Assembly: GCA_903813345.2 (NCBI GenBank) | Contig: CAIIXF020000001.1 | Coordinates: 6,389,098-6,453,097 of the forward strand | Direction: 5' to 3' | Length of the DNA: 64,000 nucleotides | DNA from: Owenia fusiformis | Lineage: Eukaryota > Annelida > Polychaeta > Sabellida > Oweniidae | The notes under the pieces: model-generated | Databases searched by the model: none | Told to the model about the DNA's origin: nothing | What the model saw: only the letters and a program-made list of their open reading frames with translations | Program-made: the position numbers and the translations under genes | In this document: positions 7,057 through 59,100 of the stretch, piece after piece | Numbering within the stretch: the first letter of the stretch is position 1 | Layout: the number at the start of each line of letters is the position of its first letter

Positions 7057-7116
7057 TTACTTTACAATGTTAATATCCAAAATTGGTGAAAAAAAGTTGG
7101 TCTCTTCAGCATGTGG

Positions 7117-7207
7117 TCTTTGTACATGTACTGATTGCTACACTCATTTGTACATGTACTGAGTGCTACACTCATTTTGTACATGTACTGAGTGCTACAC
7201 TCATTTT
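7117..7207 (+). repeat. short tandem repeat, ~34-bp unit, about 3 copies
   Basis: The unit ttgtacatgtactgagtgct is repeated with its acactcatt tail. It is noncoding and lies just after the Gln-rich exon. Confidence 0.75.
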
Positions 7208-7299
7208 GCCACCCTAGAATTGAATGTGCCATATTGAAGCTTATTTTCTTTTCATTAGCTTCTCTTGATATTATAAGCATATCTAGTTTATGAAAATTA

Positions 7300-8940
7300 A
7301 TCCACTTAAACTGATGAAAATTGAAGGTTAACAGAACTTTCTACTATATCTGCCATGTCATATGGCCTGAATTATCCACCTGATGGTAAAACTATCTCTG
7401 GTACCTTAGTAATTATTTCACTGCTGTCAACTATTTCACTGCTCCAAATCATTTTGTTTATCTCTAATATAACCAGCTAACTGATAATTATTGAAATAAA
7501 AACTATTCAAAAGATGGCAGTCAAGTAAATAACTAACCTTTGGGAATCACCTTGCATCTAGTTTCCTATAAATAACTCTCATCTTAAAGAGAGCTCATTG
7601 CTAAAAACATATTAACATTTCTGCTTCTACTCTTGAACTGAAGGATTGTACAGTATGTATCTAGCAAGTACTTGTCCATATTATTTTAACGCATTTCACA
7701 TAATGATAATTACTGTAATGGGTACTTTTCAAATCTTTTTTGAATCAAAGTACTATAGCACTTTATGGAGGATGTGTGAGCTACTGGAGGTGGTGTCGTT
7801 TTTGAAACCTTGTGAATGAAGGTGTTTTTCTTGGGATCTATATTGTAGGAAGGACTAGTAGTTAAGACAGATTTGATCAGGAATCACAATTTCTGCTCCA
7901 TCTTGGTCTTGTTTTTTGATGAAATTTGCATTTTCAACAAGTTGGCAAAATCTTGATTTCCTGTTAAAATTCGTTGATAAAATATACATTTCTGTACATA
8001 TGAGGATGTGTCTTTGGGAAATACAAAATTGCAATTAACTTATACTAATTACATATAAGTTGCATAAGTTGCATAATGTGAGTCCTTTCACTTATGAGCA
8101 AAATCTCTCTATTAACTTCTCAATCTATTACGACTTGATTTCCCGCTAGCTTAAGATAGTTTGAATGGGCCAACATATCAACCACCTTCTTCAATTTTAG
8201 TTCTGTTTTATGCTGATTGGTGTTCCTGGCTTGTGTCCAGAGCAAACTGCTCTGCAAACATTTTCATAGATTGCAATTTTCCAATACAATGAGTTGAAAA
8301 TAATATTTCCATTTGCCTTTAACTTGAAATGAATCAAAAGTAGGGAGATCGAGTATACTTAAAACCTATTGTATAAAAAATTGAAAAGTCTAATAATGTT
8401 TATTTCAGTTACTATTAAGTCTGATATATTACTGTACGTACATGTACTCGTTCTTAATATGATATTGCTATTCATGATCAGTTATCCTCAATACAGTGCA
8501 CCATGGACCTACATAACTCTTTGGAACTTATATCCTTTACAAAAACAAAGGAATAAAACTTGAAATACTGCATTTATTGGTTTTGTGTTCATAAAGTGTT
8601 CATTGGTACATATGTAAGTTACCTTTTTGTTGTTTTGATAAGCGGGTTTACTTTGAAATGATGGAACTTCCTATAGACCAACATGTTTTTAGTATAAGTT
8701 CTATAAGATATTGTTTCAGGTAAGTGGAAAGATCATGATGGCTGAGGTTTCTACTTCCATGTTATCGTGTTACTCAAATATTTTTAGCATGATTTATATT
8801 TTATTACGAACAATGTACATTGGAACTTTACTGAGTTAAATATCAAAAAGAGAGAGATTTTCCCAATAGTTCAAGGAATATATTTTATTTTTCAGCTTAC
8901 AAAAGGCCCAAAGTTTTTGTTTATAAATAATACAAATCTT
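7300..8940. other. no recognisable feature
   Basis: AT-rich DNA with no open frame resembling a family, no clear inverted-repeat element and no array. It may be intron if the CARF-like gene continues, or intergenic. Confidence 0.5.
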
Positions 8941-10286: not shown

Positions 10287-10616
10287 TTGATTATTCCCCA
10301 TCTCAACTAATACAGTTTCATACTACAGTTCATATTGAAGACAGGCTAGTGATAGTCTGAATATTGGAGAAATGCATAAATGATGCACAATTGCAGTCTC
10401 ACTAATTGAATGAAGTAGCAACTCAAGGGATTAACCTCTCATACTGTAAACCTTGGTTATTTCATAACATCTCATATTAACTCTGGCATTAGAAAAAAGT
10501 TATTCTATAAACAATTAAGTCACCCAGAAATAAGTCAATATTTGATTTTAAGGTAACTTGTGTATTTTGAATATAATGGGATCTTTAGATGGGTTTAGAT
10601 ATGATGTAAATGTTAC

Positions 10617-18452: not shown

Positions 18453-19235
18453 TTTACTTGGCATATCAGTCACTACAGTGTACAACAACCTAAACCATTC
18501 ATTTCAAGGTCATACAAATATGATTTATTGAGCATATTTTCTTCAGGTAATTTCATTAAAAGGCAGCCAATATTTAATCAGCTTAATGTCGAAACGAATT
18601 TTTAAAGGATAAAGTATACTAGAAGAAAATTTAATCTAAACTTTTACTTCAAAAAGAATTACAATTTCTAAAATACAATTTCATCAACTATCTGTCATTT
18701 ACTCTCAACTAACCATTTGTGTATTTACTGATTACTGTGATTTTAGCTGCATATAATTTAGTGCATACATCACAAATTTTAGTTGCACTTTGAAGATTCA
18801 TTGTAGATGACAGATTTCAGACGGTTTCAAAATTTTCAGTTTTGTTCTAGAGAAATTCTTGTTAATTATTAGACATTCACACATAGCTAGACAAGGTGTA
18901 TCCGATACCAGCCAATCCGCACACAGTATTTCATATAACTGCACTGCATTATATAACCAATAACTCACCCAAGGTCATTCGTTGAATTGTTGTCAAGGTG
19001 ACAACTTGACTCTACAGATTGAAATTGATCCTTTGTCAACTTAATCCTTGCAAAAAGTTTCACTGAAAATATGTTCAGGGCTTAAATCCTTGAACAATCT
19101 AAATTTTAGTATATTTCTAAAATAATCATTGATATTGTATTTTAGACCCACCTTACCCTTTTATAGTCTGTGAGAGCTATATTTCTTACATAATATGTTT
19201 TCCAGATTATCTCAAGTGACATACAAGAAGGCATA

Positions 19236-19458
19236 ATGGATGAACATATAGAGAACTCTGAAAGTCTGGTGCGGCCAGACTTAGCTGGATACTGTCCAGC
19301 TTCAAATCTTTCTTTCAATGAGCATATAACCCAACTAAAAAAGCAAGGCAAAGAGGTGTATCATTTTGCCTTTGGCCAATCACCTTTTCCTATCATGGAT
19401 CATGCTCAGGAGGCTTTACGGGAACATGCTGGGGAAAATGCATATTTGCCAGTGGCTG
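19236..19458 (+). CDS. aminotransferase exon 1
   Basis: ATG at 19236, 33 bases after an acceptor-like tttccag, so a 5' UTR exon may precede it. It encodes the N-terminus and VYHFAFGQSPFPIMDHAQ. Donor G|gtgagt, phase 1. Confidence 0.85.
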
Positions 19459-28035: not shown

Positions 28036-28769
28036 TCTAACTGCATCTATCATTATCTATGTATTGACACTACTTGGTGCTAATCTAATAATAGGATATA
28101 GGATATTGAGAAGGAAATGGTGTATGCAGATGAATATGGATTACGTTCAATTCAAATCAAACATCAACATTGTCATTAGATTTTTGAAAAATATTGACGT
28201 AGTTTGAATTGACCTGTTATGTATTGAAAATCCTGCTAGTGACAATCAGAATTGTCTAGCATTGGTCTGTTTATCAAAGTTGATGTTGTGATTCTTGGGC
28301 ATCAATTGATAAAAAAAACTTCACCCAGCTACACAACAGACAGTCAGTGAAAGTCAATCAACGAAGATTTATGTTCCCCGATTGTAGTTAAAAATAATGG
28401 AATTTAACACTTACATTTTATTATTACATACACTGTATTTCGTATCTTCAAGGAATATACAAATGCTACTGTTTTTGGTATTTTAATATTACAATTAAGT
28501 GTAAAGTGTATTTTGGAGAGAAAGGAGAATTTGAAAGAGAATAACAAGTGGAGAACTAGTTCAATGAGAAGTGGAGAACTAGTTCAATGGGAAGAGTAGA
28601 GGAAAATTATCAGTGATATTATTTTACATAACTTTATTTATAAATGTTTTACAAGTTTAATTCATCCTATACGAGTAATATCGTAAAACTGTTGTATACA
28701 AGTTGTAAACTCCTGATAGAATGTTGCTCGTTGAATTGTTATCTAATTAAAAACACTGAAGACCTAGTA

Positions 28770-29391
28770 TCTAAATGTGAATCATCTTATAATGATGAAT
28801 CTAAATGTGAATCATCTTATAATGATGAATCTAAATGTGAATCATCTTATAATGATGAATCTAAATGTGAATCATCTTATAATGATGAATCTAAATGTGA
28901 ATCATCTTATAATGATGAACCTAAATGTGAATCATCTTATAATGATGAATCTAAATGTGAATCATCTTATAATGATGAATCTAAATGTGAATCATCTTAT
29001 AATGATGAACCTAAATGTGAATCATCTTATAATGATGAACCTAAATGTGAATCATCTTATAATGATCATCCTCCTAAACAGGTATCCAGAATCCGTACCT
29101 CCTTCTTCCCCCTGCTATAACCAATTTGGAAGCGCCCGATTAAAATGAATCACGTGATCTTATTATGCGCAACGACTTATACATGATTTCTGTCGCAGTG
29201 TTGTGACAGCCAATCAGATTGCGAGTTCTTAATTGTGGAAAGGCTAACTGCTTATCGCAGGGGGTAAAAAGAAAGAATATATTCTGGATTTTGAAGCCCT
29301 GTGATCAGAGGATGATAATGATGAACCTAAATGTGAATCATCTTATAATGATGAATCTAAATGTGAATCATCTTATAATGATGAATCTACT
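28770..29391 (+). repeat. 30-bp minisatellite split by a MITE
   Basis: The unit is tctaaatgtgaatcatctta plus taatgatgaa. About ten copies lie at 28770-29066 and 2.5 at 29315-29391. The period gives an open frame of SKCESSYNDE repeats, but nothing around it supports a gene. The two blocks were one array before the insertion at 29067. Confidence 0.93.
29067..29314. mobile_element. MITE with 8-bp target duplication (hAT-type)
   Basis: Ends CATCCTC...GAGGATG, with further matching inner words (CCAGAAT and CCCCCTGC on each strand). The flanks are ATAATGAT on both sides (29059-29066 and 29315-29322). Because the target is a periodic array, the duplication has some ambiguity. Confidence 0.65.
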
Positions 29392-32006: not shown

Positions 32007-32550
32007 CTGAAACATAAAAAAACTTTTTACCATTTACATTTATCATTGCATGATATAAAATGATTATCAGCCATATATCTGAATGATAAATGAATTTGAA
32101 TTTTTGATTGGAATCATGGAATAGTATAGACCAATTATAAGATCATTTCTAGTAATACCATCATCATTTTATTGGCTCTAGATATCACAAGTAAGCGAAG
32201 CAAATGAGAGTTATCAACTCATCGATAAAAATGATATCACTCAAAATGATTTGATATTCTGGGGTTCGTTTTTCGTACGATCGTAACTTACGATTCCGAG
32301 AAAACCATTTGTCTCTGTTTTGATGAACAATGACTTGCGACCAAATCGTAAGTTACGATGGTTTCAAAAACGGACCCCTGTATATAACGTACAAATGGAT
32401 TAATTGTTGAATCATGATTATCATTGAAAATGGGTATCTTTTAGAGTTGAACTTCTAGGTACAAACATTTTCTATTTCAAAATAAACAAGACATACCTTG
32501 CTTATGTATCTGTATGTCTCCGGAGCAGTATCATCCTCCAAGTCAGACAT
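30699..32550 (-). CDS. second tau/MAP-like unit with five microtubule-binding repeats
   Basis: Exon 1 is 32550-32497 (MSDLEDDTAPETYRYISK) and exon 2 is 32006-30699; both are phase 0 at the junction, giving about 453 residues. Exon 2 has three tubulin-binding repeats at its start (KPKIGSLEKISHMPGGG, EAKIGSLDNINHKPLGG, KSRCGSLGNIHYKPGGG). A ~270-residue basic, Ser/Asn-rich linker follows, then two more repeats ([34 protein letters not shown]) near the C-terminus. All carry the K/R-x-G-S kinase-site core. The role should be binding along microtubules. It may be its own gene, or the last alternative 3' end of the large MAP gene upstream, since that gene's repeat exons also end in phase 0 and could join 32006. 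Confidence 0.75.
32260..32380. mobile_element. small MITE with CGTAACTTACGAT arms
   Basis: Left half ...GGGGTTCGTTTTTCG..TCGTAACTTACGATT, with its inverted partner ending ...CGGACCCCTG. It lies in the intron of the second MAP-like unit. Confidence 0.55.
32497..32550 (-). CDS. first exon of the second MAP-like unit
   Basis: ATG at 32550 with a purine at -3 (aggATGT) and donor AAG|gtatgt; 18 acidic codons in phase 0. It supports an independent promoter for the 5-repeat product. Confidence 0.6.
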
Positions 32551-37246: not shown

Positions 37247-37252
37247 TTTATT
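37247..37252 (-). promoter_or_regulatory. possible polyadenylation signal
   Basis: AATAAA on the minus strand, about 215 bases after the stop of the 6-repeat terminal exon. A common hexamer in AT-rich DNA, so only suggestive. Confidence 0.3.
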
Positions 37253-37465: not shown

Positions 37466-38149
37466 TTATGTAGTTGAGAATGGTTCAGAGTTTGCCCTTG
37501 GTCTAGCAGACTGTATGGGTGTTAGAAGTCTCCTCGATTTTTTAGTAAAATTGTCCTGAGATGAGCCAGCCCTTAAGCCAGCACACCAAATAGGTTTCTC
37601 ATCAATTATCTTCACGTCACCTCCCCTGGGTGTATGGGAAGTATTGTCCAATGATCCAACTTTAGAAAGTTTCTTCCACTTTGTGATTTTATTATATATA
37701 GGTGCAAATCCTCCCTGTGGTTTATGTGAAATATTTTCTAATGAACCAACTTTTGACCAAGCGTTCCATTCAAGTTTCTCATTGGGAATTACAACATCGC
37801 CACCTTTAGATATATGATAGATATTCTCCATTGAGCCAACTTTAGATTTAGCCTGCCAATTTAAAGGAACTGTCTCAATCTTTTTATCTCCACCAAATGG
37901 TACATGGTCAATATTATCCAAAGAGCCAACCTTTGATGTAGCATTCAACTTAAGGGGACTATCTTCAATTATCTTATCCCCACCGCCTGGAATATGCTTC
38001 ACATTGTCCAAAGAACCAACTTTTGGCAGAGCTTTCCACATGAGTTTAAGTTTCTGAATTGCCACATGCCCACCACCTGGGGCATGTACTAGGTTTTCTA
38101 GAGATCCAATTTTTGAAGATGTACTCCATTTCAAAGGAACTGAAAATAT
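37466..38149 (-). CDS. MAP exon 19, terminal, repeats 16-21
   Basis: Acceptor atatcttcag region upstream of 38149 and stop TAG at 37466; 227 codons. Six repeats lie in one exon without introns: [34 protein letters not shown], then variants ending PFGG, SKGG, PQGG and PRGG. The spacers are 30-32 residues with a Trp or Leu before the repeat. The tail reads [19 protein letters not shown], with a possible basophilic kinase site. Degeneration of PGGG in the last four repeats suggests relaxed constraint or a changed role. Confidence 0.87.
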   Translation of the reverse strand: MFSVPLKWSTSSKIGSLENLVHAPGGGHVAIQKLKLMWKALPKVGSLDNVKHIPGGGDKIIEDSPLKLNATSKVGSLDNIDHVPFGGDKKIETVPLNWQAKSKVGSMENIYHISKGGDVVIPNEKLEWNAWSKVGSLENISHKPQGGFAPIYNKITKWKKLSKVGSLDNTSHTPRGGDVKIIDEKPIWCAGLRAGSSQDNFTKKSRRLLTPIQSARPRANSEPFSTT

Positions 38150-41100
38150 CTGAAGAAAAAGCAGAATAAGACAGAAAAGAATGCATGCATGCAGTTGCTA
38201 TATAAGGTATATCCAGTTGATTTGTGAAGTAAAAAAGTTGGAAAATAAAAATGTTGAATGGCAGTCTTGTTTTCCTGTGGTGAATGAATACAATCATGTA
38301 TACAATGTAGTTTATATGTAGATGCACTCGGGGAGAAGCACATGCTATCTAGGTATCTAATAAGTGTCTACTACAACAAAAAGACTAAGCATTATGGAAG
38401 CACAAAACTAGCAGGTTATTTCTGTATCATGTCTATCTATTATCTACATGCCAACCAAGGTTCAATCAAAGTATATCATCCTTTAAACACGGGAGAAGGA
38501 TTCAGTGTATAGTACATCCCTTTGTTTGAAAGATGAAATAATTTGATTCAATGATTCCACATTACATCAATCCCTATCAATCCCTATTCCCCCACTTTGC
38601 AGTTTATAGCACAAACCATATGCCACATCATTTTATAATGAACATACACCGCTATACTATATGACTATGTAGCCATGTGTAAATTACCTTTTTATCACCA
38701 CCCTTGGGTGTATGTGAGGCATTGTCTAAGGAACCAACTTTGGACTCTGCCTTCCAGTTTAGCTTCTGTGATTCAATCTGTAGGAGCACAATATAAATTA
38801 AATTAAGAAACAATAGTATTACATGCACAATTAGAACAATAAAATAAATGTGCGCTATCATTACTGGAGATACATTCATTGTTCTATGATGATTAAAGAA
38901 AGAAATGAGGAATCGTTGATAGTATTTTTGACCCTTTTCCTCTTTATGCTAACCTTTCTTGATTTCAAATTTCGAATTGCCAGGCCTTATTTTGCATGCT
39001 ATATTCCAACGACTCTGTGTTTTAAGAATTCTTTTATGAACTCTTCAATGTGAACAGCTAAAGCCAAACTCCATTCGTCTCAACCAATATTGTGCATCAA
39101 TTTACCTTTTTATCACCCCCTCCAGGCGTGTGGTCAGTTTTAGAGCCCACCTTTGACTGTGCCTTGTCTTTAAAATCCAATTTTTGTGTTTCAATCTAAA
39201 AGTACACAAATAACAAGATCAGCACTGTTGTATTGGTACATGTAAATGCTTTAATAAACATGTATTTACGTGAGAATGATTTGATGAAAAAGAAGAGATT
39301 ATTTTATGATTTGTGTAAGAAACAATGATGTGCTTAATATTTCTATTAACTGATATGTGCATTTGGTTATCATTAACATTATACAATACTTGATAATGTA
39401 AAATACAAAACTGAGATTTTCATTGTTACAGGTGAAAACTAGATTTGTACGAGGGGTGATCAAAAAGTTCTGGAGTCAGTCAATCAAACCTCAAAATGTT
39501 ACAGCCACAGTATTCATTTGTAAAAATCTTATTGCTTTTGGTTTGACTGACCCACTAGTCTGCCTTTTCACCTTAAATGATGCATTACTGTGTTATCAGA
39601 AAATGATCACTAATTTTGTTATAAAAGGTTTTAAAAGTTGGTCAAAAGTATGTATAACTTGTTAAGGAGAATAAGTTCACTTAGTCAAAACATGCTAGGT
39701 TAATCAAAACAATTGTTAATATTATGTTGAATAAATTTTGATTTCAAAAACGTGAAATAATACATCGCAATCTCAATCAGGAATAGGTCAACACTACAAC
39801 CTTTGATGTGTCGAAAAATTAAGCAAATATAGCTTGAGAAAATATCTGTGCAGAGAGCTTACTTAATTTGTGCATTGTGTATTATAAAGCATACTCTCTT
39901 CATTGTGAACAATAAATGGAAATTACTGTGCACATCAAACATTTTAAAAGTAACATTTTTCTCATTTGCTTTATATGTTGGTAGAGGAGAACAGATTAAT
40001 ATTTATCTTTTCAAAGTGGTTCCCATCTATTCATATACAGCAATTGAAAAATTGGGAGTATTATGTGCTTTAATTCACTATTCGCTACAACATTCAGAAC
40101 CTTAGAATATCTACAATCAAATAAACAACATAGAATTATACAGTGAATAAATTCCATATTCATCCCTAAAATCAAAAAATAAAGGAAATAAAGGAGACAC
40201 ATTTCTACAATAAATGGTGTTAGAGGAAGTGAAAATATGAAAATTTGAATATTATTAGTATGTCAGTGCTACCCACACAATAAACATGGTTATGTGTATT
40301 ATGTGAAATTTACACAAGGTACATCACCGAAAAGTGTGTCATTTACTTTAACATCCCCACCACCTGGCGTATGGTGTGCGTTATCCAATGAGCCAATCCT
40401 GGATGAGGCACCCTCTCGGAAACCAAGTCTCTCATTTAGTATTATAATATTACCGCCACTTGGTGAATGGTCCACATTGTCAAGGGAGCCAATCTTTGAC
40501 TCAGTTCGCCATTCCAGTTTCTGACTAACTATCTAGCAAGCAAACCATGGTGCAACGCAATATTAGGCTAAACTAACTAAATGTCACGTTTAGCAGTGTT
40601 TGGATTTGTGAAAGGTGAGGAAGTGGGGCTATTAATCATGGGTAATAAAATGTCTTTCTCAAATACCGTATTCACTGTTATTACCGCCCACTCTCTAATA
40701 AGCGCCCACCCCGCTTCACAAAGTTCAAGAAACATCGAGGAATCAACAAGAATTGAAGAATATATCAGGAAAAAAATATTTCTCAAAATCCAGGAGCGGG
40801 CGGTAATAGAGTACTTACCCTAAAACTGCTGTAAACACGACGCGTTTTGTAATTCTATGCATCCTCTCGATACATATCTATCGATGGGTGCTTCCCACAC
40901 CATACCATGCTAATATTGTCTCCAAATAGTCCATAATGAATGAAGGAATTGTTCTTTATCGGCATTCAGAAATTTCAAAAGCTACTGCGCAGATGTTCTG
41001 CGCATGTCAAGGTCGTGAACTTTCTGGTTTCTTTTTACTGTTTCTCGACTTTTACACGACTTTTGCACGAATAATGATGATCTCTCATCAAATTAGAAAT

Positions 41101-44100
41101 AATGTATAACTTTAGATCGATATCCAGCAGTCTCTAGTGGAAATATTGAAGGTAATCGGCGATAATGACAAAGTGGGCGTGCCGGAAATAAATTAGACAT
41201 AGACGGGTCTTCAACCACTGTCAATATTGTCTAAGCGATCTTTACCGTATTCTCTCCAATAACAGCACTTGTCATATTATTATAAAAATATGTTGAAGAA
41301 AATGCATTCTTGTCAAGAAAAATTGCCATACATGAAATTCCTCGGGATTTCTGATTTCTTTCATACATGGGCGCTTATTAGAATGGTCTAAATAATGTAT
41401 TTTCAATTTTCTAAACGCCCTGGGCGCTAATTACAGAGAATACGGTAGATAGAATATGTTTGATTCTTGGTCTGTTTTCAATAAATGCTGCAAGGACCTC
41501 ATTTTTTGAAGAGGAAAGGAACAGCAATGTGGAAAACATTTGAATTATTTAATCTTGCCTTAATAAAGTGTAAAAGTCAAATGTGTGTTTCTCAAATGTA
41601 AGCTCAAAAATGTGAAATTATAAATAAATGAACAGTATTCTTTGAAACGATTTTGTATAAAAATTAAACTTGAAATGGACCTTAAAGGAAATAAATATTT
41701 TGGTCAGTGTATGTTCAAAGTGAGAACAACGAGTGCAGGTTACGTGCAGACATTTATTCCAGTGAAGTGAAGAAGCTAAATCATGACAGGGGATGAATGT
41801 GTTTTGATGGGTCAGTGAAATACAGGTATTGTATACAACTGCTACATAACTAGACAACAAAACAACTAAAAAATTATAGGTATATGCAGTAAATCTGTCA
41901 AGTGGAACACCTCTTAATTGCAGGTTTAAGTCCTGCTCCCATCAATCATGTAAACACGAACCTGTGTAAGTGGAACACCTACTAAGTGGAAAATTATTTT
42001 GAGGTACAAAAGGTATTCCACTCATACACAGATCCTACTGCACTATAAATTAAAACAAAAGGGTAAAACTAAAAACATATAAAAGTAAAAATGAAATAGT
42101 CTGATACAGAAATCATGTGTAAATGGACATCAATGATGGTGTGGGAACAAATGACAAATACATGTACACAAGCGGCTTGATTGTGCGAAAAGCTGACAAT
42201 ATAAAATCTTACCTATCTTACTAATTAAAGTACATGTAGTGTAATCTCTATTCTCACTATGCCTTAATTCTTGACTACATATTATTGTATACAATTATAC
42301 CTTCAAATCCCCTTTCATACAGTTAACACATTCTAAGCCAATCAAACTGAGACAATGAACAAAAATAATACCCAGTTTTACCTTCTTTTCACCACCACCT
42401 GGTTTATGTTTTGCATTTTCTAAACTGCCGACTTTGGAATTGACGGACCACTCAAGTTTCTCAGTTATGATCTAAAGTGATCAGTGTAAAAAGCAAGTTA
42501 ATTAGTTTCTTGATTTTCTCTTATTACGAGATATTGTTGAAATAAGCTGCAATATTTCTGTATAAGCTTTCAATATTCATATGCCTAGTTCTTCATGATT
42601 TTTTGAAATATTTATATTTGAATTATTGGCTTGAGGGTTCAAACAGAAAAGCTTTTAAAAATAAAAAATAAAAATTCTGGTTGGTATTGTTCATAGTAAT
42701 TACATATTCATTATTTAATAAACAGAAAAGCATTTCAAAAATTTATCCTTCTCTAGCACAGAATATTTTTTGTAGACTTTATTTTTTGAGAATTGATGGT
42801 TAATGTGCTTATAAAATGTTACCTCTCATACTCTCATGATTTCAAAGATGTTTCAACATACAGAAAATCAACATACATCTATACATTCACTCATATGTTC
42901 TGCTACTAATCTGATTATTTGGACACAAAAATAAGGATTACCTTTTTCTCTCCCCCACCAGGTTTATGGTTTGAGTTATCTAAACTGCCCACTTTCGATT
43001 CAACCTTCCAGTCGAGTTTCTTAGTTGTGATCTATTAGATCATGGAAAAGGAACCAAAATACGTCGGTTAGACTTAAGTAACTGTTGTGACTTGTAAAAT
43101 GTTATTCAAACTTTGTAGAATTAATATCCACAATTAAGAAAACTGACATATGTGCCTATTTATTTTCCTTCATAGAAAAATAGTCAACTTATCACATTCA
43201 ACATAGAAAGGTAATATTGAGGTATGAATCAATTCTACACCTTTCATTCTGTCAGACAAAAATCTTTGACAATCATCCATTAGAAGATAATTTATCATAG
43301 ATTAATTTCACATTTTTTCATCCATTCATAGATGCTTACAGATTGGATAAATAAAAATAACTAAAATAATTATAAAATATTACCATCACTTCATTACCTT
43401 TTTTTCTCCACCTCCTGCTTTATGTTTGGCATTATCTAAGCTGCCGACTCGCGACTCAACTTTCCAATCGAGTTTTCGACTCTCAATCTGGATGATTGAA
43501 AAAGAAACCAAGAAACCTTGAAATTAGAGTTTTTTAACCTAAATATGGAAGATTAAAAAATAAATTGGAATACTTCTAAAGAATTGTAATATTTTTCCTG
43601 ATGATCTCCTATTGATTAGGAAATAAGTAGCTGTACATCACATACAAATGTAGTGTTTTCATCAATTTAGGTCCATGATGATGTAAACAATGTAGAACTG
43701 AACTAAATTCTGACAATTGTGGGCCCATGTGCTCAAAATAGTAAAGTGACTCTTATCAAATGGACAAGAAGGGACAGAGATGAGGTGAGACTAAGTTTCG
43801 AAAAAATAGTCACATTTTTACAATATTTTTTCACTCATCATTCAATATGCCTATTTTTGAATAAAAATGTTATCTGGATCTGGGGACATCCCCTTTTTTA
43901 ATATTCATGAATTTGGACATTTCCGCATCTTAAATCTTCAATAACTTCTATTGTCAATTTTTCATAAAAATGGGAAAGGGAAACATTGATTGCAAGATTA
44001 ACTGCTTCAAACATTCTCGTCATCTATCCCTTCTAAATCCTTTTTGCCCAATAAAGGTGGTACCACATCTATAAATATATAATATATTTATTGATATCTG

Positions 44101-47100
44101 TGATCTAAAAATACTGCCTTTTAAGATGAAGTCTTTATTTCATTAAAAATATTTGAATGAAAATATGTTCAAATTAGATGAAAAGATTTACCTTTTTATC
44201 TCCACCCCCTGCTTTATGATTTGTTTTAGATCCAACTTTGGATTCAGCTTTCCAGTTAAGTTTCTGGGATTCAATCTAGAATAAATATAGAAGACAGTAT
44301 TTGAAACACTTTTGTAACCATGGTTCCTGCCATAGTAAAGGAATGTCAAAACTTGACAAAATATTCATGTCCCAGTATCTTAAACTGGGGGAGGGTGGCT
44401 ATTTGCTAATGCCTCTTCTCTATAGTGTACATATTGGTTAATAATAAATCCATGTGAAGTGAATATATCCCATATTTTCACAATACGATATACATGATTT
44501 CAACATGTCACAACATCATATGCTAATGGCTCTCAGGCCCGTAAGACACTTTTCTCCAAGGGGAGTGCGGTTTTTAGCTTACTAAAGAGAATATAAAATT
44601 GTCATTTTTTTGCCGCGTAAATCAAATCGCGTAAGACAGAGGGGGGGGGTCAGTTACTCCCTATATTGGTTTGGAATTAACAAATGCAACTTCCAAACGT
44701 TCCAATTGTTTTGTGGGGGGTGTGAAGTGGTCCACTCCCTATAGAAAATTTTAGTTTTGAGATGCTATTTTGTGCTTTCTGGGCACTTTCAAAGTGTAAG
44801 TTTCTAAGTAGTACGCCACCACCACGGGAATAAGAGTTGAGTGAATAAAAAACCGAGCATTCAGGGGGGTCTGGTGGTTCTCCCCCAGGAAAATTGTGAA
44901 ATTTGGTTGTATTTGGAGCGAATTTGCAACCATCTGGTACGCCTGTGCGTTATGAGTCAATACGAAAAATGTGAATATTTTCAAATTCTTTTGGGGGTGT
45001 CAAAGGGGATGAGAGGGTGAAGTGGGGTGGGGTGCCAGTAGGGGAGCAAGGGGTTGTCCCCCAGAAACATTGACCATATCAAGGTGCTATTTGATGATGT
45101 CTGGGCACTTAAAAAATGTCTGAGACAATACATGAAATTCAGAATATTTTCTTTTGTTTTGTGGGGGATGTGAGGGGTGGCTAACTCTCCTAGAAAATTT
45201 TACAATTTAAAGATGATATTTGGTGCTTCTGGGCACTTTTAAAGTGTATTAGTCAATAAAAACATTGAAAAACAATCACATTTTTTTTCAAATTTTGGGG
45301 GTGTCAAAGGGGGGGGGGAGGGGTGCCACAGGGGGAGGTGGGGCTGGGGTGCCAGAGGGGGAGCAAGTGTTTGTCCCCCATATCAAAATTTACAATATCA
45401 AGATGCTATTCGATGAAGTTTGGGCACTTTAAAAGTGTCTGTGCCTAAAAGTGCCTATTTCCCAAGAAAATTTTACAATTTTAAGATGCTATTTGGTGCT
45501 TTCTAGGCACTTTCAAAGGGTATGGGTCAATAAAAAAATTTGAAAAATCTCAATTTCTTTTTTTTTGGGGGGGGGGTGTTAAGGGAGGGGGGCTGCCAGA
45601 GGGGGAGGTGGAGTGGGGATGCCAGAGGGCGAGTAAGTGTTAGTGTTCCAGAATCATTAACTTTATCAAGGAGCTATTTGATGATGTCTGGGCAATTTAA
45701 AAGTGTCTGACAAATTCAGAACTTTTCCATTGTTTTGTTTGGGGTGTGAGGGGTGGCCCACTCCCCCTAGAAAATTTTACAATTTTACGACGCTATTTGG
45801 TGCTTTCTGGGCACTTTCAAAGTGTATGAGTCAATTAAAGAATTTGAGAAAATCACAATTTTTTTTGGGGGGGATCAAGGGGGGCGCCAGAGGGGGGGGG
45901 GGGGGGTTATGCAAGTGCAAGATGCAAGAGGGGGAGTAAGTCCCCCAGAAACACTAACTATATCAAGGATATTTGATGATATCTGGGCACTTTAAAAGTG
46001 TCTGAGACAAAACTCTAAAATAAATTTAGAACTTTTCCATTGTTTTGTGGGGGGTGTGAGAAGTGGCCAATACCGCTAGAAAATTTTACAATTTTAAGAT
46101 GCTATTTGGTGCTTTCTGGGTACTTTCAAAGTGTATGAGTCAATGAAAAAATTACAAAAAAAATATTTTTCAAAATTTTTTTTTCAAATTTATTTTGGGG
46201 GGTGACAAAGGGGGGTGCGGTCGCACCCATCGCACCCCCCCCCCATCTGACGGCCCTGGCTCTGAACCATCATTAACAATACCGCCAAACATGGTCCACA
46301 AAAAGTGGTGTGGTGGTGACATATACGCATAAAATGCCATATATCCCATGAATAAAACATTTCTTATGATTCTCCTTATGCTGATGGTAATGTGTGATAT
46401 GAATTAGCTTTCAAGAGGGTATATGGGTACAATATATTACATACCTTCTTGTCTCCTCCACCTGCTTTGTGGTCAGTCTTTGAACCAATCTTTGACTCTG
46501 CTTTCCAGTTAAGCTTTTGGGTTTCAATCTATAATATGGAATATCAAGGCATTATCATGCAAAATGTCATCACCTGCTATTTGTTGCAGCCGCCGAATGC
46601 CAACCACTTAATGCCAAACACCAACCACTTAACCCTGAATGCCAAACACCATCCACTGTTGCGGCTTGCATTGACTGAAATCTTATTGAATTGGTGGGCT
46701 TTCTATCTCAGTTTTAGTTCTGGATTTCAGCAAGTTGCTAATTCATTTGATAATTGCTTACTTATCAGAAAGTTGAGAATAGGTTCTACTGCTTTATAAA
46801 AATATGTTTGTTTTTAAATGAGTACTCCAATGATTCCCTCATTACAATAAATGTTCTTTAACATACCTTCTTGTCTCCCCCACCAGGTTTATGAGTTGTT
46901 TTTGATCCTACTTTTGATTCTACTTTCCAATTCAGTTTCTGGCTCTCAATCTGGAAAAAGAAATGTGAACAATATTACATCTCCCAATTGTATAAATATA
47001 TAAACATCATATAGTATTATTTTAACATTTGCAGTAATAATTTTGGATGTTCTCTTTCGGCAGAAATAAATAGTAACAGTGGACATGATGTTATCATAAC

Positions 47101-50100
47101 CAAAACTGACATATTATGGCAAACACACATGTTATGATTAAATACCTTAATACAATATTAATTACTTAAAAACTGACATTTCCTGGCTTTTATAGGGTAT
47201 CCCAAAAGTAAGTTGCAGTTATTAATAATACTGAAATTACGCTTTGGCCACCTTGAAATGATATAGGAAAGGTTTTATTAATGAAAAATTATTTTTAGAA
47301 AAATGTTAGACATGTTTTGATTATACTCATGTGTAAGATTATAAAGGTCAAATATCAAAATGCCATTTTTACCCAAAAATAATTGAATTTGGAGGGAAAT
47401 TTGTTAATCAAATCAAAATCAAATAATTTTAATGATGATGGCAATGATAATTTCTAATAACTGGTGATGTGACCCTTTCGGGGGAGGGGGTTTTAATACC
47501 TTCTTATCCCCTCCACCAGCTTTGTGGTTTGTAACAGAGCCAACTTTAGACTGGGCTTTGGATCCAAAGTCCAGTTTCTGACTCTGAATCTAGAAGTAAA
47601 GTGCAAGTGTTAACATGTTAAATATAAAAGTGTTAACATGTTAAATATAAAAATGTTAACATGTTAAATATAATTAAAAAACACATACAATTTGTAAATG
47701 TTAACTATACAGTGTACATGTTAGAGGGTATAGAGATGTCAAGAAATTCAACTTGTTTAATTTCTGTTCATAAATCAAATTCCATTTGTGCTCCAAAAAG
47801 TTGGAACAAGAAGTATTGTATGCGTGTTAGCACTTACAACACTGCTTAGTACTTGATTATGTCCATCAATACAAATATAGTGCTTTGTGCATATGAAAAA
47901 CTGGGAGGAGTGGTAAAGTGTGAGATTAAGTGATCTTTATTATACGGTGCAGTATTATGATCATCATCATCTTCATCGATGAAACCCTATGGAGTGAATA
48001 CAGTATTAGACGTATATTGATTAGCTTTGTCTATTATGTAGTCTCATTTGGTAAAACAAATAAATGTTAGATCAACAACATTGACAATCCAGTCAATGAT
48101 TGTTATATTCTGGTATCTTTTTTAAAAGAATAAAGAAAAGAACATGACATAGAAGACAAAAAGCAGCAACAGACATTCTACAAGAGCTGCATACAAGCAT
48201 TGATTACCCAATGTCATCTTAGACTTTCGTGGCCTCGTTGGATCAATATACAAACCTTAAATCCCCCACCTCCAGGGGAATGTGTCATGTTGTCTCTTGA
48301 TCCTATCTTAGATTGAGCATCCCAGCTGAGTCTCTTTGATTCTATCTACACAAATAGTGAAACAAAAGCAAACAAAAATAAATCACAAAACCTGTAAGCA
48401 ATAAACGACTCTGCAAGATCATATAATGTCTTTTGAGCTGTTTCCTTCAAACATGATTTTTAGATCAAAGCAACTAAAGCAAATGACCCAGAGCAGAGAT
48501 CTGAATGATTATTTTCCGAGCTTTAAAGAAAGGTGAATTTCCTCGTAAGAAAATAGATACCTGATCACAGTTACCAACAAGACCTTAACATATTGTGAGC
48601 GGTTGAGCTGGACATCCTGCCAAGCTTACTGATACAGATAGATATATGGCACATAGACCCGGAAGCTCACAATATCATGAGGTTTGGTTAGTACCCCTGC
48701 TGATTATACAACTCAGAAGTAGTTTCAAAATAATCATTCAAATCACTGGGACCATATCACACTGATTTTAATAACACATAGTAAAAAGTTGTCACAAACA
48801 TAAGCAAAATGGAAAAATTAACAGTTGAGGACATTTAAAGAGCGTCATGTTAAGGACACAAACAACAATAAAAATGCAATCAATAAATAAAATGATATCT
48901 TAACCCCCTGAACGATACATCTTAAATAATCAATGTATCTCAACTCCCTAAATAATACATCTCAAATCCCTGAATGATATACCTTAACCCCCTAAATGAT
49001 ACATCTTAACATCTTAAATAATAATTAATGTATCTCAACTCCCTAAATAATACATATCAAATCCCTGAATGATATATCTTAACCCCCTGATTGATACATC
49101 TTGACATCTTAAATAATAATTAATGTATCTCAACTCCCTAAATAATACATATCAAATCCCTGAATGATATATCTCAACTCCATGAATGATATTTCCCAAC
49201 CCCCTGAATGATATTTCTCAACCCCCTGAATAATACATTTCAACCCCATGATTGATATTTCTGAACACTCTGAAGGATATATCTTAACCCCCTAAATAAG
49301 ACATTTCAAATCCCAGTATGATATATCTCGATCCCCTGAATGATATTTCTCAACCCCCTGGACATAATGTCTTAACCCTTTAGATAATGTATCTCAACAC
49401 TCTGAATGATATATCTTAATCCCCTAAATAATGTATTCAACCCCCTGAATGTTATATCTTAACTCCCCAAATATTGTATCTTGACATTCTAAATAATGAA
49501 CCTTACTCCCCTAAAAATAATGTAAAACAACCCCCTTAATGATATTTCCCAACCCCCTGAATGGTATTAACCCCCTATATAACTCAAGGCCCTGAATGAT
49601 ATATCTCAACCCTCTAAATAATGCATAGCAACCCCCTGAATCATATATCTCAACCCTCTAAATAATGCATAGCAACCCCCTTAATGATATTTCTCAACCT
49701 CCTGAATGATATCAACCCCTTATATAATTCATCTCAACCCCCTTAATGATATATCTCAACCCTGTGGATGATATAAACCCACTGGTTCATTTACCTCAAC
49801 CCACATGCAACATCTCTTCTCCCTACCTTCTTAGCTCCTCCCCCTGGAGAGTGTTTAGTATTCTCCTTGGAGCCAATCTTAGACTTTGCGTCCCAGCTAA
49901 GTCTCTTGCTATCAATCTAGTGTGATTATATATACAGAAGTACAGTATATTGGATATAATAATAGAGATATCTGGTCCATCAAACTAGAATATCATACTT
50001 GCCAACATTCAATCTGGAGAATTCCAAATAGTTTACGAAATGTAGCATCTAAGTTTTGTTTGTTTTTTGTTTTTGTTTGTTTGTATGTTTGTTTGTCCAT

Positions 50101-53100
50101 TTGATTCGTAAATGAGCCTGTATATAGCTCTATTGTATACTATATTTCAGAGAGTAATTAAGTAGGTTTTTATTCTCACATCATCATTGCAACACTTTGA
50201 TATCTGCATAGTTTACGATCTTTTACAGGCCATTTGCTTTCAAAAAGTAGCTTTCAACAAGCTGACTGTAAGGATGGTACTTTTGAAATAACAATCGCTT
50301 CTTATTGGATAGAAATGTTTGAATGTTGGCAGGTTAACAATATCATATAGTAAAAGATATCACACAAAGAAAGATGATTAAAAAACAAATCTATGAAAAC
50401 AAGTGCTTCATTTCAGTAAAAGATAAGTTGAATTGTTACTCAACTCAGAGCTTCTTAGTATTAAATATTTAAATAATTTTACTGAGATGAACTAAGCACA
50501 ACACTCTAAGAAAAGGTGCCCTCTATCAGAATGATAGTTAATCTAGATAATTTATACTAATTTAGGCTCTGTGTACTAAATGTGATACAACAGTATAAAT
50601 TCTACTGCAAAGGGAGAAGGTTAATATGTAAAGGTTCATTAAGTACTCGGAGGTATTGGATAAAGGGTTTATCTCGAGGGATATTTCTGTATTAGATGCC
50701 CTGATATTTCAAGAAGGACATCTCAATTTGGTCCTTCAGCAGGGAGATATAATAATATCCCACGGGATAAACCCTATATCCAAAGCCTCCCGTTACATAA
50801 CCCTTATATTCAAACTATTGGCCGTGCCCCTATGAGTAAATGCAGTGATCAGGATAATGAAATAACAACACACTAAACCAGGGCTTTTCAAAAGTGCCCA
50901 TGATTTATCTAATGAGAAAGTGAGTAAAACTATTATTTTATAAAATATGAGTCAAAATCCATCATTCCATCAGGTCAAATGTATTTGGGTCTGTTTCACT
51001 TAAGTCAATATTCTCATCAAGTCCCTTATAAGTTAGCTTACCCAAGTTGTCTATGGTGGCTTGGCAATTGTAACCCATGCAATGTCACTCAACAACAGGC
51101 TATTATTCTCACCTTTTTATCTCCACCACCAGGCTTGTGTGTCGCATTGTCTTTAGAGCCACATTTACTTTGCACTTTGCTGACATCTACCTTCTTGCTT
51201 TCAATCTTCACCTGAAACAGAATAAGATTTCAGTGAAGACACAAACACAACATTAAATAATAATAGAGGCATGGGAAAATAAATGGGGATAATCCTCGAG
51301 CTCAAAAGTTTGAACACCATACAAAAAGAGTGTTAATGGGTAAGTGTTCATTATTATACAAATAATGACTGTCATTGAGGGCAATAGTGTAAATTATTTC
51401 CCCCAGGGAATATTCTCTTAAATATACTATTCCCGAAGCCGCAGATGGTATTTAGCTAAAGAAAACATATTTCAAACATGATGTATAAAATTGATTTCAA
51501 CAGTTAATTCAATAATTAGGGTAACGAATCAGGAGTAATCATTAGAGAATGACTTGTATCATAAACTAAATATGTGTGTTACTAATCTTGGATCACTTAA
51601 ATCAAAAATAAATATATGAGAGCTATATTATCATCACATTCTTTATAGCATTAGTATATCTTATTGAATAGTAGTATAAATATTACCAAACTGACCACTT
51701 GCAGCTGTCAATGTGATTAAGGTCATTAATGACAGGTGATAAGATACTGAGGCATCTTTACTACCAACGCACTATGTTACTACTAATACAGAAATTGTAC
51801 TTAAATGTGTTCCCTTACAGGCTTCATCATGATTTATAAGAAATATGGCAACATCTGAATAACTTTTCAAAACAAAACTTGTGCAAAATGGACCTCTAAA
51901 TGCGCTCCTTAGTGATTTTCAAATTGTATAATGTCTTGAAAAAAAAAAAACTTTTTTCTTTGAACTTACAAAACAATTATTTACCCCATTACCATTTGTA
52001 CGCCTAGGTTAATTAGAAAATGGGTAAACTGTAAACTTTGATTTCATCTATGATCTCATTGAACATTGAGCTCTTTCGTTTAGAGATGAGGTATACAATT
52101 TTTCCAGTCCCTCTATCCATAGAAGGGTCAACAACTAGTACTGAGTGTGCACTTTCTGGATAATGTTTCATCTGAAAAATATGTAGATGGTACCAACTTA
52201 CATTGCCACCTCCTGGGGTATGCTTGGCATTGTCCAATGAGCCTATTTTGGACCTTGGGGTGGTGGCCTTTCTTGGACTGGTAGCCTGGAACAAAGAAAA
52301 AAAACATTGCAATGATGGCCGCAAGTTGATTGATTTCAAAAACTGAAAGGCAATTCTGTACTTGAAAGATCAAAAGTGTTAACTGTGACACTTCTTTACT
52401 TCCAGATCTTACTGATGACCAAAAGCGTTGCACGTTGATGTCTTGGAAAATCTGAATTAGATATCATCGGCCTCTTAATTCAAATGGAAATCTCAAGTTT
52501 TACCTTGACAAAGTAAGGTCAAAGGATCAGAAAAATGCAATACAAAATACACCTACAGAAGGAGTAATATCAACAGCAAAAACTAAACCCTTCATATCTT
52601 ATCAATATTTATTATGTATTAGATAAAGTGATAATCTCAAAGAGAACTTGGCCCTACCTTCTTGCCAGATCCCCCATCATCTATCCCACTGTCTGATGAT
52701 GTATCTAAAATGGTAAACAACATTCTGTTGATAGAGTTTAGATAAGAGATGAATAAGGAGAAATATTTCTTTATCTTAAATTCACTTCAGTAAAATTAGA
52801 AATGTAAATCTTTAAATAATTAAAGATGCTCTACTTTAAATTCATTTGTTGAACATTACGTATCATCTCATGACAAATTGTCAAATTTAAAAGTTAAATC
52901 CCCAGAATACAGTATAGGAAACTGAGACTTGAGGATGAAAGTTGTTTGTCCTTAACATAGCATTCTCTGAACACAAGACGTTGTAATAGATGTATATGTG
53001 CAATCCATGCAACTACAATAAAAATGATTAAAGATGATTAAAAATAAATATTCATTTATCATGTGATAAGTATCATTTATCATGTGATAAGTATTGTGCA

Positions 53101-56100
53101 AACTACAACATGCAATGTAACTACAGTACTACATATACAGTGTATATATTTATTCATTGGAACATTTTACAACATGCATGTTTATCGAAAATATCTTGTG
53201 TATATTATCTATATGTTTGAAGGTGCATAATAAAAGAAAAATAAGGGCAATGTGAATGATGGTTAAATGATAAATACAGCTATATGTAAATATTATCATA
53301 GAGGAATAAATAATTATACTGTTTTTACTACATGTCATTGATTGGACCAAAATGTATATATTATTAATTTAAAATATAAGGTAAGAGATGCTAAATAATT
53401 TGTAATCATGGCCTAATATTTACTTTCCATGGGAATCTTTTGAGTTGGAATAATACTGGAATAGTACATGCACAATGATCATCAAATAAATAAAAAAAAT
53501 TAATAAATAAAATGTCTAAATCAATGACGCAAAAACAAAACATAAATTAACCTAGGAACACTAGATCAATATATCCTATATAAAAGCAGTAGCCATATTT
53601 GTAATGAGCATAAAATAATTAATACTGGGTCATGGATCGATATGAAATTATATGAAGTGCACCATAATAATAACAAACGCATGTGTTTTAGCTATCCCTT
53701 TATGGCAATATGCCATCTCTCGCATATTTTAGGTTATATATTCCCTGGAGTAAATCTTGCACCTGTTAACAAATGCATTTGGAATCACCTTTTGTGAGTC
53801 CATTAAAAACAAAATTTGTTTCTATAGTATGAATATATTGTTCAAAATATGCTTTAAAGCAGGGATGTTTATATAGACATCCTTGTTTCAAGAAAGGCAG
53901 TTGTTTAGACCTAATATTTTCCAGAAATGGAGAGGATTAACTCATGAAAATTTTCAATTTATCATAGAGTAAGTAAGTAAGTAAGGTATTTATTCAATTT
54001 ATCGTAGAAACCTATGCCCCAATCAGAAACTTTGGGGACTTCAACCTCAGAATCAACACCAAATGAATTTTTACCATCCAGGGGCCTACTATTATACTGT
54101 TCATAGTAATGAATGTTCATAAGTCCATTGTTAAATTTAGGAATTGTGAATGTTCGAACAGCCCCTAGCTAAATATATTGTTATAAAATCAACAACAGAA
54201 GTTTGATTCTTATTGTTCAAATTATCATAATTAATCATTCATAAAGTAATTCCATACCCCAGCTTGTGGACTTTTCTGAATTATATTACCAAAGCATTGA
54301 ATGTAGTCCCAGGATAAGTGAACTTATGAATCTCTTCAACTGAACATTATGTCACATACAGATGTGGAACCTCACACATATTTAATCCTAAATTAACACA
54401 CTAAATAATTATATGTCCTGAATTTAGAAATTATTTAATATTATTTTTTCAAGTTTTCCTCAAGTTATAACATGACTGGATAAGTCATTAAATCAAACCA
54501 TTTTCAGTTCTGCCATTTTGACATAAACAAACCTATTTGAATAATGCTCAACTTACCTTTGTGATCTTTATTCATCTTTTGAAGTAGCTACATCTATGCA
54601 ATATTATCCTTATAACGATGATTTTCTTAATCAGATCAATTATATAAATAATTCAAAATGTTTTCAGTATTGGACTTACCAACCATTGAACCATAACTGA
54701 TTATTTTTACAATTGATTTAGGAAAACATATGTTTTCCTTTCCCATTTATATCGTGAAAGAAAATGCCTGAGATGTGTGAATTGCTTTCTTTATTATAAT
54801 GTTCCCCAGGGTCATATATCTCTCCCAGCTGAAAATCTCACTCTATTATCACATTAGTAATCCATACAATTCCTCTCAAGATCAAGTGTCTTTTTTCCTG
54901 TGTTCCAATATAATTTGAATTATAAATTCCACACCTAAGTTATACTTCAAACCTGGATATAGTTTCACTCTTAACTCAGTTTTGAATTTCAAAACTAAGC
55001 AGTAGAACTTTTTATCCCTAGTTCTATAATATATTTCTGCAGGCAAGGCTTTGATTGCCTTCAACTTCTATACAGTTGCCATGGCAACCAGGTAAACAGA
55101 CTCAGGAAATTGACAGGTTAATTCCTTAGATGTAATTTATTATCAAAGTAATGATAAGGATATAATTAATATCAACTAAAATCGAATGAAAAATACTTCA
55201 AAAATAATCAGGAAATCAGACAGAAAAATTAATACCCGTATCTTTAAATCAATTTAAGAATTGAATTAAGGTCATTTGTTGATGTGCAACCTAGATTGTG
55301 TACCCATATGGAATAAGATATGATGTGCAAATCTTTAATATGTGTAGCATGCTGTTAGATTGACTGCTATATTCTAAACAAAATCAAATTTAATCATACA
55401 TAAATCAAAATTTGACAATCATTTTTAATAAAATGTTTTTTTTCATTTTACATGTTCAGTAAATGATTCTATTGTCAAATTCTGACTTGTTAGTTTGAAA
55501 TTCAATGTGTATCATTTATAATGCAATAAACTCAGTACAACTGGCTCAGTATTAAAAATAATATATTTGGAAGATTTTCCACGAGTAGTGATGACTCAAG
55601 GTGCATTTGATATTACTCTTTTGTGACAGTATTTCCCTTGGGGGTTAACAAGATAACATCAAAACACCTGACCTGCCAAGTTGACCTCATAGTCATATTT
55701 TTGGCCATTTATCAATTACATTTTGGCTATATGTCAATTAGATCATTCTTAAATGATACACATGAATTTTGAATACAACTTCAAAAGCAATATCAAATAA
55801 AAATAAAAAATCAGGATGGTGCACTAAAATATGAATCTGAAACAGAATGTGAAGCACATGCATAAATGTGAAACAAAATGTGAAACATGCAGTGTACAAT
55901 ATCTATGTAGCAGTTGCACCTTGTTTTCTGGGAGTTGCAGGTTTAGCTGGTGCAGTTGAAGGTCTACTAATCGTTCTTGTTGTTGTTGTTTTAATTGTTG
56001 TTGTTGCTGACTTTGTTCTCTCCCGAGGGGTGCTGTTTGTGGTCCTAGATGCCACACTGACCCCACTTGTTGTAGTACTAGATTTAACACTTGGGGACTT

Positions 56101-59100
56101 GAGTTTTGACTTTGTGGTGGTTGCAGGGGCGGTAGAGGGTCGGGGGGTTTTTGGACTCTCTTTGTCTTTGGGAGTAGATTTTGGGCTTGATGGAATTTTA
56201 GAGCTAGTGATCTTACGTGGACTACCTGTATGAGTTATCACCTGGGACTTAGGAGATTCTGTCTTTTTAGGGCTCGAGGGAGCACTTGTTTTTCTGGGAC
56301 TCGAAGGAGCACTTGTTTTTCTGGGACTCGAAGGAGCACTTGTTTTACTGGGACTCGATGGAGCTTTTATTTTTTCAGGACTTTTTGATTTTGATTCAAT
56401 AATTTTGTCAGGGGTAGGTTGTTTGATTGGTTTCGTTTCGGTTTCGTTTAAATTTGGGGGAGTTTGATTTATCTGGACATCCTCTAGTTTAGGGGGTGGT
56501 GGCAGTTCCACATCTGACTCGGGAGAGATACTAACCATGGATTCAATTTGATCTGAATGAGTTTCAATGGTGGTTATAGTTTCAAAGGTTGAATTAGCAT
56601 TTCTTTCAATGGCTGAAACTGTATTTGCTTCTCTTGTGTTATTTGTTTCAACTGTTGTGTTTTCTACAGATGTGCTAGTAGATTCAACAACAACAGACCC
56701 CCCAAGTAAATCTGGTAAAGATGGCATTGTATTCTCTTTATCGTGATCTGGGTCCACTGGAGCAACATATGGTTCAAATAAGTCATTAGGGGCTGCAAAT
56801 GGTTCAAATGTGGATACATCTGGATTTTCAATATTACCTTGTGGAACAACTTGGTCTTCAATGGTTTCAGGGGCACTGGGCATAGAAAATGGATCAAAGT
56901 CACTGAATTGAGACTGGGGAGGGTTTGTGTTTATGTCTTGTCTGTTATCAATGGGGGCTTGTGGTTGAGCATTATCAGAGAGTGCCTCGAGGTCAATCAG
57001 GGTGGTGGCATCTGTAGCGGGTTGCCCAGTATCATGATTAAGCTCAAAGCTAGCTGACTCAGGATTAGCCGCCTCCTGGCTGGGTGGCTCAAGGCTTGTC
57101 GGTTCTGACATTAACCCAGACATAGTAAATTGTCCACTCAAGTATGCACTATCGGCCGTGCCTGGGGGTGACTGGAAAGGTTCTGAACTCAATGGAGGAG
57201 CATTCAGGTCAAAGTTCAGTAAATCATTTGCTGTTGCAGGTTGTTGTTTATTCGGTATCTCTGATAGACCATTTGTAAATGGATTTGTGGAATTATTTGA
57301 GAAGGGATTTGTTGAGGCATAATCACCATTCATGACTGGTGGTGAGACCATCACACCTTCATCTGTGCTGACATCTCCATTAATCTTATTCTCATCTAAA
57401 AGTACATTGATGGACAGACCAAATACAATAAGGTTTTCAATATCATATGTAGACCTGCTAGAGACATAAAATAAGAATATACAGTAATCAAATGTAATAC
57501 AAAATAACATTAAATTATGAACAATTGCATGTATGTTATACCTGTCATCTCTAAGGTAAGGTAGCTCAGTATAATCTGAAGAATAAACATCAATGTTAAA
57601 TATAAATAGAATGCCTTCGAATAATATTGTTGTACCACTTCAACAATAGGAATGAAGTATTGTACTCTGTTATACTATATGTTGTCCTTAAAGGGGTATT
57701 CCTTGCAAGACCATCTCTCTCCTAATATGGTAGCTGTAACCATATACATACTTTGAAAGTTCATCAAAAAACAGAAAAATGTTTTGAAATGGTCAATATT
57801 GATCACTTAAAAATGTAGTGCTCAATTCCAGTAGGCTGCCATCTTTTAAAATTTCACTCAGGAAGTGATGTCATCGACTCTCAACTTTGCATATAACATT
57901 AGGTAAGGAGCTATTAGAATTACTAAACCAGCTGAATATTTTTTTCAATTTGGTCTATGATTAAAATCCTTTTGATGATCTCTTCTTTAGTTCTAAGTCG
58001 ACAACTCCTGAAAATATTTTTACATAGAAGATAAGGGCTTCTTGTTTAGAAGTGATTTTATACTTCTTTCCTATACTGTAATAGACAAGGTTATAACAGG
58101 TGAGAGTCGATGACATCACTTCCTGAAAGAAATCTGAAAAGATGGCAGCTTACTGGGAATGAGTACTACATTTTTAAATGATCAATATTGACCATATGAA
58201 AACATTTTCCCGTGTTTTGCTGAATATGTAAAGTATACATATGATTGTAGCTACCATATCAGGAGAGAAATAGTCTGGCAAGGAATGTTCCTTTAAGTCC
58301 CCAGGTCAAACATCTTATGCCATGGACTTGTATATTGGAATGTTATGTAGATCTTTGTGACTTTTTGCTATTTCTTTTAAACCTACCAAGAAATAATAGT
58401 ATGCAGCTCAAAACAAAATTATTTTCATTTCACGTTTTAAAGCCTCGAACTTGCACATCAATTTTGAGAAAATTCTAGTTTAAAAAGCAATAAAACTATA
58501 ATTGCTCAGCGCATGTTTAATTGTTCAGGTAAATGGCTATAAAAAGGATAATTTAAAACAATTATATTGATTCTACAATGTTCATTTGTAAAACAATAAG
58601 TACTCCTTAAAATTTCCTAACACATGCTTCACATAAAGGTCCCTATGAAAGTAGCTATGAAAGCAGTTTCAGTAGACAAGATCAATAGCCAATTCTGCTT
58701 AACTGCTACATTTCCCTCAATAGTTAAAAAACAGTGTTCGTCCTCGATCAATTAAGTTCTCGATATTGCTTTTGAATCATCCTTTGAAATGAATGAGTTT
58801 ATCTACCACACTATCTATATACTAGTACATATTATAAGGATGTTAGGATGTCTTTATAAACTAGATCTGCTTCCCTTGCAATGGAAAGATGCTTTCTATA
58901 AAAGAAGTAATATTGTTTTTTCTAAGATTACATGAACAGGCTCAATACATTTTGGCCAAAAAGTACATCAAAACTGATCCTCCATTTGATCACATGAGGC
59001 CAATTTTAAATGACAGATCATACTTCTCAAGGCTATATTATATGGTAGAAGAATCCTGTGAATGTCTACTTCTTGCATACCAGTGCAGGCCTGTCAACTG

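Follow-up and report, generated by a model that had tools for sequence, protein, structure and literature searches.

On the minus strand of the window, by which we mean the whole stretch of 64,000 nucleotides that was analyzed, 15 consecutive exons (52285-37466) encode 21 tubulin-binding repeats, as identified with the Pfam profile PF00418 on the spliced predicted protein. The profile matched this protein in 21 stretches, with an E value of 1.2e-222 and a score of 719.7 bits (cut-off 27). Acceptors are AG in 15 of 15 array exons and donors are GT in 14 of 14. Array exons 1-14 start and end in phase 0, and their lengths (84-186 bp) are multiples of three. The repeats are spaced by 28-32 aa, and 597 aa separate the first KxGS from the last. 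These results bear out the original prediction of 15 exons carrying 21 in-phase repeats on one strand without stops. The range that it gave (37466-52285) is correct for the array exons, but it omits three upstream exons as well as a five-repeat exon at 32006-30699 (Table 1). When the window was compared with itself by blastn, self-similar repetitive stretches were also observed within array introns, at about 44.7-46.2 kb (44700-46160) and 48.9-49.8 kb (48900-49800), together with a short stretch in exon 2.

Table 1. Exons and candidate exons of the tau-like genes. Positions refer to the window, except for the last row, which refers to L009 on contig C8.
Feature	Position	Strand	Basis
Exon 1, start codon (ATG at 61510) and 15 residues, phase 1 donor	61465..61510	minus	splice/phase logic, predicted
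Exon 2, projection domain (acidic part, then basic part rich in Ser/Thr/Pro), phase 1 at both ends	55920..57395	minus	frame, phases
Exon 3, 15-residue link exon, phase 1 to 0	52658..52704	minus	splice/phase logic, predicted
Repeat 1 exon	52202..52285	minus	splice/phase, Pfam PF00418
Repeat 2 exon, core SKCGSKDN as in vertebrate tau R2	51113..51211	minus	splice/phase, PDB match
Repeat 3 exon	49827..49916	minus	splice/phase
Repeat 4 exon	48256..48345	minus	splice/phase
Repeat 5 exon, short core	47500..47589	minus	splice/phase
Repeat 6 exon, short core, 28 aa	46867..46950	minus	splice/phase
Repeat 7 exon, short core, 28 aa	46445..46528	minus	splice/phase
Repeat 8 exon, short core, 28 aa	44192..44275	minus	splice/phase
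Repeat 9 exon	43398..43487	minus	splice/phase
Repeat 10 exon	42942..43031	minus	splice/phase
Repeat 11 exon	42382..42471	minus	splice/phase
Repeats 12 and 13, single 186-bp exon	40347..40532	minus	splice/phase
Repeat 14 exon, short core	39106..39195	minus	splice/phase
Repeat 15 exon	38688..38777	minus	splice/phase
Last exon, repeats 16-21, degenerate 22nd unit, C-terminal tail and stop codon	37466..38149	minus	frame
Candidate first exon of small gene, MSDLEDDTAPETYRYISK, phase 0 donor	32497..32550	minus	donor 11.0 (strong), coding score 1.3 (weak)
Five PF00418 repeats, long unique linker and stop codon	30699..32006	minus	Pfam, frame
Candidate tau-like gene (L009), candidate first exon with APET at 4261-4359	4261..8154	plus	first exon is the single candidate passing the filter

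Together with the three upstream exons, the array can be joined into a gene of 18 exons, whose matching phases yield a single predicted frame of 1,197 aa with its sole stop at the end. The mismatch in phase between exon 2 and the first repeat exon was removed by exon 3, which scores highest among the three exons listed from 55.9 to 52.3 kb that run from phase 1 to phase 0. The predicted protein runs from an acidic N-terminus through a basic Ser/Thr/Pro-rich region and the 21 repeats to a short tail, with net charges of -44 (aa 1-340), +26 (341-523), +51 (524-1150), and +4 (tail). An AATAAA hexamer occurs at 37252, 214 bp past the stop, and is weak evidence since the hexamer is common (174 in the window versus 158 expected). 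At the DNA level, the one start exon, the one terminal exon and the one frame support a single predicted gene on the minus strand at ~61.5-37.25 kb. The claim of a tau/MAP gene with 21 repeats is strong at the level of the gene, and the presence of all 21 repeats in a single mRNA is likely but unproven. Within exon 2 (57395-55920, minus) we also observed two NPF, one DPF (FDPF), FEPF, DLL, and LIDL/LPDL stretches. We take the NPF/DPF/DLL-type stretches to resemble endocytic adaptor motifs; they possibly reflect a link to membrane traffic, or may have arisen by chance, the region being acidic and disordered.

The signature SK[IVC]GSxxNxxHxPGGG on which the array had been recognized held in part. 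Its strict form (GSxxNxx[HYFW]xPGG) is found in nine of the 21 units, whereas [KR][IVC]GS (19 K, 2 R), the His and the final GG are retained in all 21. Five units (R5-R8 and R14) have a core shorter by two residues, and seven (R9, R12, R15, and R18-R21) deviate in the PGGG turn. A loose form of the motif matched 26 times in the real window and zero times in 198 of 200 shuffled windows, which were made by moving two-base blocks and are therefore not true dinucleotide shuffles. Nonsynonymous differences were fewer than synonymous ones (pN < pS) in 210 of 210 pairs of repeats, with a mean pN of 0.33 versus a mean pS of 0.75, and even the closest pair (R7-R8) had a pN of 0.045 and a pS of 0.816. 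Around the repeat exons, similarity by blastn ends at, or a few bases from, the exon borders. Because the differences are mostly synonymous and the introns unrelated, the exon copies are old and have been selected at the protein level; the array is thus an old one that is under purifying selection.

As judged from its predicted sequence, the gene is a member of the tau/MAP2/MAP4 family, in agreement with the assignment made originally. Repeats 1-7 matched 52 PDB sequences at E<=0.001, one row of which is titled only microtubule-associated protein and the others tau or a filament or fibril of it; the best was 6cvn, a microtubule-bound construct of four R2 repeats. The predicted gene has the traits of vertebrate MAPT/tau, MAP2, and MAP4, that is, PF00418 repeats with a KxGS core, repeat exons in phase 0, and the charge layout of an acidic N-terminus followed by a basic proline-rich region. 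Those vertebrate proteins, however, have 3-4 canonical repeats (four in human tau) as opposed to 21 here. Vertebrate MAPT also carries a VQI(I/V) PHF6-type hexapeptide, whereas a search for this amyloid hexapeptide gave no VQI motif and no PHF6-like match in the repeat region. The repeat region contains 16 Trp, in contrast to the relative absence of Trp and Phe described for MAPT (PMC4815063). In published trees, non-vertebrate MAPs fall outside the three vertebrate families, according to the available text of the same source (PMC4815063). Across the 498-Mb genome, PF00418 gave at least 27 matches, these counts being lower bounds; among the matches listed, 26 lay in the window and one on contig C8.

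The two exons between 32550 and 30699, which lie just beyond the end of the large gene, probably form a separate tau-like gene. The five-repeat exon was at first favored as part of the large gene, a placement that became less likely given its own candidate first exon and that of a paralog on contig C8. If it served as an alternative last exon, the large gene would produce an isoform of 20 repeats and 1,405 aa, which would suit the shared strand, the phase 0 acceptor and a junction that is in frame without a stop. We consider this rather improbable, since the candidate first exon lies only 0.5 kb upstream, although its coding score is weak, and since the paralog on C8 is likewise laid out in two exons. 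APET occurs in both candidate first exons, a match of four residues only, and a similar WKPLP stretch in both second exons. In the C8 paralog, which is a candidate third tau-like gene (L009, 4261-8154), the second exon encodes three repeats by our local profile and two by Pfam, followed by the WKPLP stretch. The local profile found no further repeats around the C8 stretch, either in 44.8 kb upstream or in 10 kb downstream, and the lack of any repeat exon in the 44.8 kb before the last exon of the paralog also speaks against the use of such an exon as the alternative end of a long array. A long low-complexity run of the DLxNDTxD type was seen after the three repeats of the C8 gene.

Other features were observed in the vicinity and elsewhere in the genome. 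On the plus strand of the window, exons resembling a class I/II aminotransferase gene (19194-27790) converge on the small tau-like gene, and Pfam backs one of the three tested (22606-22941, PF00155). Long open frames of short tandem repeats on the same strand (9143-10290, 24569-25971, and 28644-29148) are probably minisatellites; Pfam matches to two of three frames tested look like low-complexity noise. A frame in L010 (7049-7339, minus) resembles by eye the end of an ABC transporter ATPase domain and had no Pfam match. On contig C6 (27.03-27.05 Mb, L017-L019), three matches to the annelid erythrocruorin-linker family PF16915 exceeded the cut-off, with E values from 5e-7 to 5e-4, and hint that the host is probably an annelid. 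The assembly gave no match to COX1; it gave none to the molluscan haemocyanin family PF14830 either, a negative that carries no weight since the controls were equally silent.

The gene model leaves room for several ways in which the array might be used. A single gene could include only a few repeat exons in each transcript, so that the 21-repeat protein would be rare or never made. Each of the 14 repeat exons ahead of the terminal one is in phase 0 with a length that is a multiple of three, which would permit skipping in any combination; pyrimidine tracts are interrupted at several repeat-exon acceptors (scores 5.7-11.0), and the repeat exons of vertebrate MAPT are alternatively spliced (PMC4815063). 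On the other hand, the donors of the known repeat exons all score 7.0 or more, and the last exon alone encodes six repeats, so even the minimal isoform would surpass vertebrate tau. Every repeat is under purifying selection, though this would be equally expected if the exons were used a few at a time. On balance we regard such selective use as possible, if on the unlikely side. A division of the array exons among at least two short, independent tau genes is very improbable. The repeat exons do stand in tandem over ~15 kb, with introns of up to about 2.2 kb that could conceal promoters, but a start-bearing set of exons precedes the first repeat exon only, and only the last exon (38149-37466) is terminal. 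Moreover, the middle exons have no starts or stops of their own, and no convincing initial exon was found in the two introns scanned (42.4-40.5 and 46.4-44.3 kb).

Tandem arrays are a known cause of misassembly, and the copies might in principle stem from an assembly error or from a recent duplication. The unrelated introns and the near-saturated synonymous sites rule out an assembly copy, and we give an artefact of either kind a negligible chance. We favor, with a probability of about 0.75, a single tau/MAP2/MAP4-family gene encoding up to 1,197 aa and 21 repeats, together with the tandem grip on tubulin proposed below.

According to this proposal, the array probably grew as a repeat exon between phase 0 introns was duplicated again and again, and because the flanking introns are in phase 0, each copy would be in frame and could be included or skipped. 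Tau repeats are disordered, and a tubulin dimer measures ~8.2 nm. The repeats would bind in tandem on the outer ridge of a single protofilament, each gripping one dimer, and the serine of KxGS would sit where the repeat touches alpha-tubulin. A full-length molecule would thereby tie up to 21 dimers, or roughly 170 nm. Its departure from the lattice would be very slow, and release would be switched at 21 possible sites of the MARK/Par-1 type.

Several published observations bear on this proposal, as far as the available text of the sources goes. In cryo-EM, the density segment of one repeat corresponds to ~27 extended residues plus a link of 3-4 residues (PMC10873104), and tau has been described to place one repeat per heterodimer, with Ser262, a MARK site, contacting Glu434 of alpha-tubulin (PMC13224075). 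The spacing of 28-32 residues in our protein is compatible with one repeat per dimer, from which the originally suggested spanning of many tubulin dimers would follow; the role as a permanent bundle stabilizer, also suggested originally, is speculative. In the account of Nogales and Kellogg, a molecule of tau may bind through a single repeat or through all of them, and experiments have yet to corroborate the tandem model (PMC10873104). Affinity need not rise with the number of repeats, because constructs of repeats only bind weakly to taxol-microtubules and flanking regions are needed (PMC13224075). The short-core repeats (R5-R8 and R14) may differ from R2 in binding. A more far-reaching version of the proposal, which we put forward tentatively and think unlikely, holds that all 21 repeats are constitutively spliced into a near-irreversible clamp on ~170 nm of protofilament. 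Such a protein would support exceptionally stable bundles in some annelid cell type, its 21 kinase sites would allow graded release, and, lacking the PHF6 motifs, it would have little propensity for amyloid of the tau type.

Expanded repeat arrays have been described in other animals, and the view that known members have about 3-5 repeats has to be corrected accordingly. Sundermann and colleagues (2016) reported 5-7 repeats for teleost MAPT, with seven in the Antarctic rockcod, as well as phase 0 introns for MAPT exon 12 and growth of the teleost array as an exon in phase 0 was duplicated (PMC4815063). Such duplication probably took place here too, but in teleosts the second repeat exon alone has multiplied, to a total of seven repeats as opposed to 21. 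Gottschalk and Hefti (2022) counted PF00418 in UniProt reference proteomes, in which molluscs reach 7-10 repeats and a protein of the oyster Crassostrea gigas has ten (PMC8985376). The molluscan multi-repeat MAPs are likewise invertebrate PF00418 proteins with an expanded array, and the ten repeats of the oyster protein stand against 21 here, a comparison by description only. Near-identical tandem repeats, similar to R6-R8, are otherwise found in the artificial R2x4/R1x4 tau constructs (PMC10873104; PDB 6cvn), which are man-made and have four copies, while the array described here is natural and has 21. In the one open-licence library searched, no PF00418 count above ten was found described, which is in line with the expectation that no member this long had been reported. 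The 21 repeats are about double the largest count found there, and represent an extreme case that extends a known trend.

The repeat expansion known from molluscs now reaches what is probably another spiralian phylum. Arguments on how affinity and dwell time in the tau family depend on the number of repeats mostly compare three with four repeats or draw on engineered constructs. A natural member with 21 repeats, encoded by cassette exons that keep the frame, would offer a series for studying avidity, protofilament register and the KxGS switch. Moreover, its repeats, which contain no VQI, a motif associated with the aggregation of tau, would separate microtubule binding from amyloid formation.
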